DNA from: Verrucomicrobiota bacterium
GTDB lineage: Bacteria; Verrucomicrobiota; Verrucomicrobiia; Chthoniobacterales; JAFAMB01
Direction of reading: 5' to 3'
DNA: 32,524 bases
NCBI GenBank assembly: GCA_019236675.1
Contig: JAFAIO010000041.1
Location: 1-32,524, forward strand
In this document: one piece after another, positions 2,705 to 32,450 of the stretch
Layout: each line of letters opens with the position of its first letter
Numbering within the stretch: the first letter of the stretch is position 1
Program-made: the position numbers and the translations under genes
The notes under the pieces: model-generated
The model's database searches: none
Seen by the model: only the letters and a program-made list of their open reading frames with translations
Told to the model about the DNA's origin: nothing

Positions 2705-4186
2705 GTGGCACTGTCTTCACTCACCGTTCACGAAGCTCTGGACTTGCTTCGGCGAAAAGAGATATCGCCGAAAGAGATCGTTGAAGCTCTAGTCAAACGA
2801 ATCCAAGAGATCGACGGGGCAGTTCATGGGTACTTATCATTCGATCCTGAGCGTGCTTTAAAAGACGCAGAACACGCTGATGTTTCGCTTCCGTTGGGAG
2901 GTATTCCCATTGCTATCAAGGACGTAGTTAGTGTCCAAGGTCACCCCTGCGGCTGCGCTTCCAAGATTTTACAAGGGTACATCGCGCCGTTCGATGCCAC
3001 CGTAATCAAAAAATTGCGGGCAGCGGGCGCTATTCCCTTCGGGCGGACAAACATGGACGAGTTCGCCATGGGATCGTCTACCGAAAACTCCGCATTCGGC
3101 CCGAGCCGTAACCCTTGGGATGCGGACCGGACTCCTGGAGGCTCAAGTGGCGGATCCGCGGCTGTGGTCGCTGCCGATGAGGCCTTGGCTGCGCTTGGCT
3201 CTGATACCGGAGGGTCCATTCGCCAACCTGCTGCCCTCTGTGGCTGCGTGGGTGTTAAACCGACGTACGGAAGAGTGTCCCGGTACGGTCTGGTCGCGTT
3301 TGCTTCGTCTTTGGACCAGATCGGACCACTTACAAAGAACGTCCGTGACGCGGCCCTCATCATGAACGTCATCAGTGGGGCGGACCCCTGTGATTCGACG
3401 ACTTTGGACGAGCCGGTTCCCGATTACACGGCAGATCTCGACAAAGGAGTAAAAAATCTCACGCTCGGTCTGCCCAAAGAATATTTCATTAAAGGGCTTG
3501 ATCCTCAGGTTGAGGAGGCCGTGCGAGCCGCCGTGGCGTGGTACGAAAAACTGGGCGCGAAGATCGTCGATATTTCGCTTCCGCACACGGAATATGCGCT
3601 GAGCACTTATTACATCATCGCTCCGGCTGAAGCCTCGGCAAATCTCGCTCGTTTCGACGGTGTCCGTTATGGTTTTCGCGCAGACGGGATCACCGGATTG
3701 TCGGATCACTACGGCAAGACCCGGGAAGAAGGTTTTGGCCAGGAAGTCAAACGCCGGATTATCCTGGGTACGTATGCGCTGAGCTCCGGCTACTACGATG
3801 CTTTCTATCTTCGGGCACAAAAGGTGAGAACTTTGATCCGGCGCGATTTTGATGATGCTTTTGCCACAGTGGACGCCATTCTGTGCCCGACTTCTCCGAC
3901 GCCCGCTTTCAAGCTAGGAGAGCGGACCGGCGACCCCTTGCAAATGTATCTGGCTGACATTTTCACTTTGGCTGCGAACATGGCAGGCATTTGCGGGATC
4001 AGTATCCCATGCGGCTTTGCTGAGGTCGACGGGAAGAAATTGCCGGTCGGCCTGCAAATTCTAGGTAAAGCTCTCAATGAAGCCACCATGTTCCGAGTGG
4101 CGAACGCGTATGAGCAAAGCACCGATTGGCATCGGGCGAAGCCGCTTTTTGGGGCAGAAAGTGAAAGGTTGAAAGGTGAAAAGTGA
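2705..4186 (+). CDS. gatA: Asp/Glu-tRNA amidotransferase subunit A
   Basis: GatA is the amidase subunit that releases ammonia from glutamine (or asparagine) for tRNA amidation. At 493 residues it has normal length. The amidase-signature triad is intact: Lys72 in PIAIKDVVSV, cis-Ser147 in GGSSGGSAA and nucleophile Ser171 in GSDTGGSIRQPA, with the same 24-residue spacing between the serines as in Staphylococcus GatA. The start is a GTG two bases after the gatC stop; it gives the expected N-terminal helix, and no better ATG exists. The last codons are rich in GAAAGG-type sequence (ERLKGEK), a slightly variable tail. The gene converges on acs across the spacer with the composite repeat element. 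Confidence 0.96.
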   Translation: MALSSLTVHEALDLLRRKEISPKEIVEALVKRIQEIDGAVHGYLSFDPERALKDAEHADVSLPLGGIPIAIKDVVSVQGHPCGCASKILQGYIAPFDATVIKKLRAAGAIPFGRTNMDEFAMGSSTENSAFGPSRNPWDADRTPGGSSGGSAAVVAADEALAALGSDTGGSIRQPAALCGCVGVKPTYGRVSRYGLVAFASSLDQIGPLTKNVRDAALIMNVISGADPCDSTTLDEPVPDYTADLDKGVKNLTLGLPKEYFIKGLDPQVEEAVRAAVAWYEKLGAKIVDISLPHTEYALSTYYIIAPAEASANLARFDGVRYGFRADGITGLSDHYGKTREEGFGQEVKRRIILGTYALSSGYYDAFYLRAQKVRTLIRRDFDDAFATVDAILCPTSPTPAFKLGERTGDPLQMYLADIFTLAANMAGICGISIPCGFAEVDGKKLPVGLQILGKALNEATMFRVANAYEQSTDWHRAKPLFGAESERLKGEK

Positions 4187-4205
4187 AAGCGCGAACCATC
4201 ACCGA

Positions 4206-4450
4206 GACCGGAGGGGCGTTGCATTCCGCGTGCAGTTTTCACGCATGTCGGCGCCTATAATCGTGTCAGATATGGCGCTCGGAAAGACGCGACGCCCCGG
4301 GGGTGCAGCCGGGTTCCACGCGCTTGGTTGGAAAGATTCCTCGATCCTGCCACATCAACAGGGAGCCGCGGCAAATGTGTCCATCAGTGACTCACGCGAT
4401 AGACCTTTTCAAAGGCTAAAGGCCCGATAAATTTAATGCGGCTCCCCTTC
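4206..4450 (+). repeat. Composite paired-hairpin non-coding element, copy 1
   Basis: This fills the gatA-acs spacer (4187-4524), which has no gene. It has two modules. Module 1 is closed by GGGGCGTTGC (4213-4222) and GCGACGCCCC (4289-4298), complementary at nine of ten positions. Module 2 is closed by GGGAGCCGC (4361-4369) and GCGGCTCCC (4438-4446), perfectly complementary. A second copy in inverted orientation at 28665-28880 shares exact blocks in the same order: CAGATATGGCGCT (4267-4279), CGACGCCCCGG (4290-4300), ACAGGGAGCCGCGGC (4358-4372) and ATGCGGCTCCCCT (4436-4448). I know no named family; it could be a structured RNA, a MITE-like repeat or a bidirectional terminator. Confidence 0.8.
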
Positions 4451-4524
4451 ATCCTGGGTTGTGCAACGCCTCTTACCTGAATCAAAACATGGTTCCCTGG
4501 CTGCATTCACGGCGAGCTTGCAGC

Positions 4525-11923: not shown

Positions 11924-12027
11924 GGTAAAGTCTCTACCAAAGAAGAAACGGGATTGGTGTGAGCGTCAACGCTCGAATCGCGATGGTCGACCGTTCGGAG
12001 GCGCTATGTGAGAATTGCTGCCGCGAA

Positions 12028-12127
12028 AGTAATTAGTGATCAGTGAATCAGTAATCAGTATTGAGGCCGCTTAGCCGATTTTCGCGAGCTTCCGAACTGA
12101 TTACTGACCTACTGATTACTGATTACT
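12028..12127. repeat. ATCAGT-word inverted repeat, copy a
   Basis: The left arm 12028-12059 and right arm 12096-12127 are about 32 bases each and largely complementary. The right arm, reverse-complemented, is identical to the 32-base words at 16707-16738 and 32392-32423. It lies in the divergent spacer between nudC and the M20 gene (11924-12211), which holds no gene. Confidence 0.85.
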
Positions 12128-12211
12128 TTCATGAACGAAGCCGACGACGAAACACCGTCCCACGAAGTCCTTGGGTAATACAACGTCCCGCGGTACATTG
12201 CTTGTCATCGG

Positions 12212-14843: not shown

Positions 14844-15060
14844 GTGGGCGATGGGCGAATAGGCGCACGGCGAAACGGCGAAACGGCGAAGGGCGACCGC
14901 GGTAGGGCGAAAACCCGACTTCGCCAAGCCTACGTCGCGGCTAGTCTTAAGGCCTGATACGATACAGAGAAGGGCCGCGCCAAAGCGTAGCGGCGACGTA
15001 GGCTTGGCGAAGTCGGGTTTTCGCCAATTCGCCGGTGCGCCGTTTCGCCTATTCGCCCAC
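14844..15060. repeat. Perfect 33-bp inverted repeat with nested outer arms
   Basis: The core arms 14906-14938 and 14993-15025 are exact reverse complements over 33 bases, with 54 bases between them. Outside them, GGCGAATAGGCG-type words (14851-14866) and CGCCTATTCGCC (about 15046-15057) extend the complementarity. The element lies between two convergent genes. The word GCGGCGACGTAGG at 14990-15002 also occurs, on the minus strand, across the stop codon of the isochorismatase-family gene. Confidence 0.9.
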
Positions 15061-16660: not shown

Positions 16661-16706
16661 GCCAGGATGGCTAGTTGGCTTTTCATAAATCCTCGTGCTG
16701 ACGGCA

Positions 16707-16796
16707 AGTAATCAGTAATCAGTAGGTCAGTAATCAGTATCGGCTGACCACCGCCAGCTTTCGGACTGATTAATGACACGCTGATTACTGATTACT
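16707..16796. repeat. ATCAGT-word inverted repeat, copy b
   Basis: The left arm 16707-16738 is identical to the 32-base word at 32392-32423. The right arm 16765-16796 is its reverse complement with a few changes. It sits in the convergent spacer 16661-16838, and no gene is visible there. Confidence 0.88.
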
Positions 16797-16838
16797 TAGT
16801 TCCACGACCCGGCTACCCTCCCACATGCTGAGCCGCCC

Positions 16839-23430: not shown

Positions 23431-23538
23431 AATAGCCGCGAAAAGGCGCAAAAAACGCAAAAAGATTTCTGGCTCCAAGCAAATCGCTCCTGGCTCTTCC
23501 TCTGACACTGATTACTGACTCACTGATTACTGATTACT
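23431..23538. repeat. CGCAAAAA words and single ATCAGT arm, copy c
   Basis: A block of GCGCAAAAAACGCAAAAAG type (23431-23465) is followed by one 32-base ATCAGT arm (23507-23538), which differs from the consensus arm at two bases. No opposite arm is present, so this copy cannot form the hairpin. The spacer 23397-23653 between two divergent genes has no gene. Confidence 0.75.
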
Positions 23539-23653
23539 TGCCCTTCCCGCCTTAGAGACGCTCCCTAGGAACAAACACCTCCGCGTGGCTCATTTGACGT
23601 GATTACTCCACTGCCGGACCGTCAACGCGGACGACGTCAACCAATTCCAACCG

Positions 23654-28485: not shown

Positions 28486-28592
28486 GAGCAGTAAGCAGTA
28501 AGCAGTAAGCAGTAATCAGTAAAATCAGTGATCAGTCTTGATGCTCACCGGGCTTCTGAAACTGATTACTGACATACTGATTATTGATTACT
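28486..28592. repeat. ATCAGT-word inverted repeat, copy d
   Basis: The left arm (28486-28536) is a degenerate run of AGCAGTAAGCAGTA and AATCAGT words. The right arm 28561-28592 matches the 32-base arm type with three changes. It is more diverged than copies a and b. Together with the neighbouring composite element it fills the gene-free stretch 28362-28940. Confidence 0.8.
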
Positions 28593-28664
28593 ACGCGCAC
28601 ACCCGGGTCTTGGTTTCGCTCACCAGACTCCTTCTCGTCTGCAGCGTTGCATGACCTCAAACGG

Positions 28665-28880
28665 AGGGGAGCCGCATTGGCGATATCAGACCTTTGAATT
28701 CGGAAGCGATCTATCGCGGATCTCGCCAAAAGACGTGTCTGGCCGCGGCTCCCTGTAGCTGTGGCACGATCCCGGTCTGTTAAACCTGCCTCAAGTCCGG
28801 GGCGTCGAGTCTATTCTAGCGCCATATCTGCGACGATCATTGCAGTCGACGAGAGTGCGAGCTGCAATGCCCCTCCGATC
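28665..28880 (-). repeat. Composite paired-hairpin non-coding element, copy 2
   Basis: This is the inverted counterpart of 4206-4450. On the minus strand it shows the same blocks in the same order: CAGATATGGCGCT (28818-28830), CGACGCCCCGG (28797-28807), GATCGTGCCACA (28760-28771), ACAGGGAGCCGCGGC (28742-28756) and ATGCGGCTCCCCT (28665-28677). The module 2 inverted ends (28668-28676 and 28745-28753) are again perfectly complementary. The internal sequences have diverged and are shorter by about 30 bases. No open reading frame is shared with copy 1. Confidence 0.8.
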
Positions 28881-32323: not shown

Positions 32324-32391
32324 GTCGCTGCGTCAGCTGATAGGAAAGCTCGGTCGAAGGGTGAGACGTGAGAAGGTGGCTCGAGGCTGAA

Positions 32392-32450
32392 AGTAATCAG
32401 TAATCAGTAGGTCAGTAATCAGTTCAGGAGCTAGGAGCTAGGAGCTAGGA
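32392..32450. repeat. ATCAGT arm (copy e) followed by AGGAGCTAGG tandem words
   Basis: Bases 32392-32423 are identical to the left arm of copy b at 16707-16738. Directly after them, 32425-32450 hold AGGAGCTAGGAGCTAGGAG-type words. Here two different repeat types are fused. The partner arm, if any, lies outside the window or is absent. Confidence 0.85.

Follow-up and report, generated by a model that had tools for sequence, protein, structure and literature searches.

A dispersed GGAG-footed hairpin element of Verrucomicrobiota with probable dependence on a RAYT transposase

Introduction

The 32,524-nucleotide stretch of DNA analysed here (the window) belongs to a soil Verrucomicrobiota MAG (G000; 5.87 Mb, 565 contigs) and carries, at two sites and on opposite strands, a composite non-coding sequence whose parts recur in the same order. 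What this sequence is, and what maintains it, is the question raised by the locus. The original prediction saw an undescribed element, present twice and built of two closed modules, that might be an ncRNA, a MITE-like element or a bidirectional terminator.

Two composite copies in the window

Comparison of the window with itself, made without a prior, recovered an ungapped inverted match of 85 nt and another match of 30 nt between copies A and B (Table 1). Exact blocks common to both, which include CGGAGGGGC, AGATATGGCGCT, CGACGCCCCGG, AGGGAGCCGCGGC and AATGCGGCTCCCCT, follow in the same order, and the blocks, positions and closing arms were found as predicted. Both copies are intergenic: A lies between two converging genes that end at 4186 and 4525, and B lies between 28361 and 29350. 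Chance is excluded as the source of this resemblance, because a search of the 5.9-Mb genome with copy A returned copy B (E = 1.3e-7) and 47 other places, making 48 further matches at E <= 0.001 (best 3.8e-35).

Table 1. Coordinates of the two composite copies and of their feet and stem arms in the window
Feature	Position	Strand	Evidence
Copy A, whole: left-type unit, spacer, inverted right-type unit	4209..4454	+	Profile matches 4209-4298 and 4348-4454; inverted-pair class at 12 places in the genome
GGAG foot of left-type hairpin, copy A	4210..4213	+	48-unit alignment; GGAGGG ranks first among 6-mers that flank RAYT genes on both sides
Left-type stem, 5' arm GGGCGTTGC, copy A	4214..4222	+	Unit alignments, stem pair counts
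Left-type stem, 3' arm GCGACGCCC, copy A	4289..4297	+	Unit alignments, stem pair counts
Right-type stem, inner arm GGGAGCCGC, copy A	4361..4369	+	Unit alignments, stem pair counts
Right-type stem, outer arm GCGGCTCCC, copy A, followed by CTTC, a mutated CTCC foot	4438..4446	+	Unit alignments, stem pair counts
Copy B, whole, built as copy A	28660..28880	-	Profile matches 28799-28878 and 28660-28766; orthologous copy in G003, remnant in G002
GGAG foot of left-type hairpin, copy B	28873..28876	-	Window sequence, unit alignment
Left-type stem, 5' arm GGGCATTGC, copy B	28864..28872	-	Window sequence, unit alignment
Left-type stem, 3' arm TCGACGCCC, copy B	28800..28808	-	Window sequence, unit alignment
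Right-type stem, inner arm GGGAGCCGC, copy B	28745..28753	-	Window sequence, unit alignment
Right-type stem, outer arm GCGGCTCCC, copy B	28667..28675	-	Window sequence, unit alignment
CTCC, inverted GGAG foot of right-type hairpin, copy B	28663..28666	-	Window sequence, unit alignment

Other repeats share the window. One dispersed repeat, ACTGATTACTGA...CTGATTACTGATTACTT, often forms inverted pairs (12027-12128, 16706-16797, 23507-23539, 28558-28592 and 32391-32423) and has matches at dozens of places in the related genomes G002 and G003 and at a few in G001. A short tract like GAAAGGTTGAAAGGTGAAAAGTGAAAG lies at 4159-4190, just left of copy A, and is found again at many sites across G002 and G003. 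Long local inverted repeats, with arms of 43 and 39 nt that are 93-97% complementary, occur at 14906-15025 and 2223-2381 in DNA otherwise rich in short motifs.

A family of paired, inverted hairpin units

The family was delineated by profile HMMs and pair counting, and its copy numbers, taken from searches, are lower bounds. By this approach, at least 65 related terminal units, in approximately 40 elements, were found in G000, so that the predicted two copies were far too few. The search of relatives that had been proposed also revealed further copies, in two of the three other genomes of the genus. Units of the left type (that of the first hairpin of copy A) were found in three of 28 genomes, namely G000, G003 and G002, which are exactly those that contain the RAYT-1 gene described below, and were not found in G001 or the 24 other relatives.

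Alignments of 48 left-type and 12 right-type units define the layout of the ends. From the outside in, a unit consists of an ACCCAG-like flank, GGAG, a stem of ~9 bp and a loop of 55-75 nt, with a short spacer between units; left ends read GGAG-GGGCGTTGC…GCGACGCCC and right ends, reversed, read GGAG-GGGAGCCGC…GCGGCTCCC. On the other strand the right type starts CGGAGGGG-AGCCGC-ATT, compared with CGGAGGGG-CGTTGC-ATT for the left type. A reversed right-type unit starts like a left-type unit, which makes the two modules opposite ends, in inverted orientation, of a single element: each is indeed closed by inverted ends, as predicted, but they are not independent. The possibility that module 2 is a second element of its own was rejected, since it is an inverted end that has a left-type partner in 12 of 12 pairing cases; one lone right-type unit is present elsewhere (L162:1201-1299).

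Pairing is the rule across the family. An inverted partner on the inner side accompanies 50 of the 65 units in G000 and 40 of 42 in its relatives, while 14 of the 65 have no partner (9 of them near a contig or locus end) and one has a direct neighbour, at the RAYT locus, which is also the only place with outer-side neighbours. Composites of a left and a right unit are ~245 nt long, with spacers that are mostly 47-53 nt. Some copies have the left type at both ends, and their spacers range from 7 to 289 nt, plus one of 514 nt where the RAYT gene sits; no pair of two right-type units was seen. Genes around 42 elements are convergent at 15, tandem at 16 and divergent at 4, with 7 elements at edges. 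The composition of the flanks, taken together, reveals only a slight preference for ACCCAG-like sequence and no evident duplication.

When 31 units that represent both stem types in four genomes were aligned jointly, the 9-bp stem was intact in 97.8% of cells. Both partners have changed in three of its pairs, and its covariation scores 0.285, versus a mean of 0.136 for shuffled alignments and at most 0.099 for slid pairings. The stem is nearly invariant within one type, left or right, and the covariation therefore rests on a few changes between types rather than on many independent events. Indels that are not multiples of three occur among the aligned left-type units.

A RAYT gene between the same units

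Seven Y1_Tnp matches were found in G000, one of which, RAYT-1 (L024:649-1188), is bordered by two direct left-type units on one side and an inverted one on the other. RAYT-1 is a 180-aa protein with the Y1_Tnp core as its sole domain; it is assigned to REP_Tyr_transpos (NCBIfam NF047646; 89.9 bits, cut-off 80), its nearest solved structure is TnpAREP 4ER8, and the IS200 model NF033573 gives 23.2 bits, short of its cut-off of 55. Its orthologue in G003 is 82% identical and that in G002 76% over the core; G000, G003 and G002 each have a single copy of the gene, bounded by inverted left-type units (L024, L107 and L108, respectively). Its dN/dS of 0.24 against G003 indicates purifying selection. 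The G002 gene (L108, G002:C337) contains in-frame stops and encodes EYIH instead of EHVH/EHIH, with loss of the first histidine of HUH, so it looks inactivated though its repeats remain; dN/dS values that involve G002 are void on account of these stops.

RAYT-2 and the RAYT of G001 are flanked by units with another stem, and in all four genomes of the genus related RAYTs have AGCCGC-stem units alongside, several of them in tandem. A RAYT tree sets the left-stem RAYTs apart (100/98) and unites the RAYT-2 group, including the G001 RAYT (99/98). Stem type is thus seen to track RAYT clade, with compensatory changes. Unit length also differs, from ~90-95 nt for the left and right types to 58 nt for RAYT-2 units and ~20 nt for distant relatives. 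The composites look like chimeras of two stem types, because their right-type end joins the stem core of RAYT-2 units to left-type flanking bases (CGG, CATT). Close relatives in named records are Verrucomicrobiota MAGs.

RAYTs of another group (C312/C375) were considered as the cognate enzyme, given a short module-2 match beside C312, and were rejected as a separate clade with other flanks; no GGAGGG was found within 600 nt of L049 or of L124, a relative of these RAYTs.

Copies compared between sister genomes

At site A the element is present in G000 and G002 and absent in G003, where the joint could not be aligned. Site B has the full element in G000 and G003, of which G002 keeps only the last ~28 nt, and at site C (L160) a left-left pair is common to G000 and G003. 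Between the same two genes at site D, G000 has a left-left pair (L165, G000:C137) and G003 an AGCCGC-stem pair (L192, G003:C604). The latter lies within inverted GCGAGATCGGAGG, and it looks as though one family had taken the other's place or moved into it. None of these four sites offers a recent insertion matched by a precise empty site.

Composites have a mean identity of 72%, and orthologues are hardly closer than paralogues. Judged by these alignments, this looks like an old population of elements that is eroding, with losses and replacements, rather than a recent burst. A function other than mobility is possible, because orthologous copies persist, and can be aligned across two species, while their intergenic flanks have diverged.

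A GGAG foot beside other RAYT genes

The foot is also found outside the genus. GGAGGG flanks both sides of 22 of 28 RAYT loci in other Verrucomicrobiota genomes and is the most frequent both-sided 6-mer in an unbiased test (100 shuffles; shuffled mean for GGAGGG 3.2, best of any 6-mer 16), and GTAGGG is on both sides of none of the 28. Distant RAYT relatives have short, ordinary REPs with this foot, such as GGAG-GGACGAC-ctccgt-GTCGTCC and GGAG-GGGCATG-ctccgt-CATGCCC, and no GGAGGG was found at four more distant RAYTs of the genus. In the short relatives (flanks of L128, L130 and L092) the loop is often CTCCGT, in which CTCC is complementary to the foot, so that contact between foot and loop is conceivable.

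Published feet and motifs include GTAG, GTGG, CGTC, CnGA and GGGGWSAS (PMC3733652, PMC6006769). GGAG as a word start was not found in the main texts of the REP/RAYT papers examined, and a literature search of mostly open articles returned no paper. Since GT[AG]GGAG precedes the stem in some REPs of Pseudomonas and Xanthomonas, GGAG may be an offset form of a known foot. It is about as likely as not that these repeats constitute a GGAG-tagged REP superfamily, an additional tag class alongside GTAG and CGTC with its own RAYT clade across Verrucomicrobiota (and single examples in Armatimonadota and Lysobacterales), in which the genus of the window would have several-fold larger loops and the window elements would be chimeras with the stems of two sister RAYTs at their two ends.

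Relationship to known systems and proposed mechanism

The family resembles REPs and REPINs in its footed, intergenic hairpins, its inverted doublets, its many copies, and a RAYT gene of the same genome that is flanked by the same hairpin, with stems specific to RAYT lineages (PMC3116915, PMC2817692, PMC8266576). It differs from them in its GGAG foot, where REPINs have GTAG or GTGG, in units of 58-95 nt with large loops, where REPs have 20-40 nt (21-65 in the widest use), and in that the left and right hairpins of one element can differ in stem. With TIRtrons/TIRYTs (Di Nocera et al., 2013; PMC3733652) it shares a RAYT-like gene enclosed by long terminal inverted repeats, which are in addition dispersed singly or in pairs. 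However, the motif GGGGWSAS of the majority of published TIRs (PMC3733652) is absent, GGGGCGTT or GGGGAGCC being present here, and the core-only RAYT-1 is unlike TIRYTs, most of which were placed in subclass 2.1, which has additional C-terminal domains (PMC6006769). A Y1 HUH transposase and subterminal hairpins are shared with IS200/IS605, from which the family is distinguished by a single gene-bearing copy per genome, by ends that are inverted copies of one unit and by a score far below the IS200 cut-off. The original statement that no named family matches holds for Rfam, where a scan of the window at gathering score gave no match, but the kind of element, RAYT-associated palindromic repeats of REPIN/TIR type, was already known.

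The window copies are very probably non-autonomous, RAYT-dependent mobile elements of REPIN/TIR type in which the tag is GGAG rather than GTAG and the loops are greatly enlarged. Direct observation covers the family itself, its inverted-pair geometry, its stems and their compensatory changes, the location of the RAYT gene between such units in three species and the match of stem to clade. By analogy with TnpAREP/REP and IS200/IS605, the Y1/HUH RAYT, encoded once per genome between inverted units, would bind folded single-stranded hairpins, recognize them through the GGAG foot as a guide plus the family-specific stem, nick beside them through its tyrosine, and copy or join a hairpin pair into new intergenic sites. 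The parts required for such a mechanism (HUH and tyrosine, foot, stem, inverted pair) are present. Escherichia coli TnpAREP binds single-stranded REP hairpins via foot and stem and cleaves nearby dinucleotides with a covalent tyrosine link (PMC8266576), and it has been suggested that REPINs are what RAYTs mobilize (PMC3116915). Several observations stand against RAYT-dependent mobility: the missing recent insertion with a precise empty site, the persistence of orthologous copies beside diverged flanks, the broken RAYT-1 of G002, the RAYT-2 stem at the right-type end, so that more than one RAYT could move the composites, and the GGAG foot, whereas TnpAREP is known to read GTAG.

A secondary reading, which we consider improbable, is that the ~245-nt composite is a selected structured RNA or a bidirectional 3'-end or terminator element, with mobility at most its origin. 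The near-constant composite spacers, the copies alignable at one site in two species beside flanks that are not, and the position of copy A between converging genes agree with it, and although the ncRNA and terminator predictions gained no direct support, 15 of the 19 convergent or divergent sites are convergent, which is the arrangement anticipated for hairpins located at the 3' ends of genes. However, Rfam has no match, the loops drift freely, composites at one site in different species resemble each other little more than unrelated copies do, each of sites A and B has been lost or has eroded in a sister species, and this reading accounts neither for the left-left pairs, whose spacers differ, nor for the RAYT link.

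Of the three roles predicted, the MITE-like one was right, given the inverted ends, a copy number in the dozens and the cognate transposase gene that these ends enclose. A MITE of the classical DDE-transposase kind that lies beside a RAYT gene by chance would share the first two of these features, but it is very unlikely: RAYT is between the same units in three species, stems change together with RAYT clade, and each end is itself a hairpin with a foot. Pooled flank composition gives no clear sign of a target-site duplication. An origin of the shared blocks from a decayed protein-coding gene has a negligible probability and was rejected on the non-triplet indels of the alignments, the compensatory stem changes and the placement of 41 of 42 elements outside genes predicted by a simple codon-usage gene finder. 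Codon-wise conservation between species was not seen, and the short frame matches that favour this reading arise because the RAYT reading frame runs a few residues into one unit.

Implications

RAYT-REP pairs are a system built on a domesticated transposase, for which a recognition rule of foot plus stem has been proposed, and in vitro work on them has used the GTAG repeats of Proteobacteria. A clade that combines a GGAG foot, lineage-switching stems, very large loops and two-stem chimeras offers a natural test of which hairpin parts the enzyme reads and of the way in which enzyme and repeat co-evolve.
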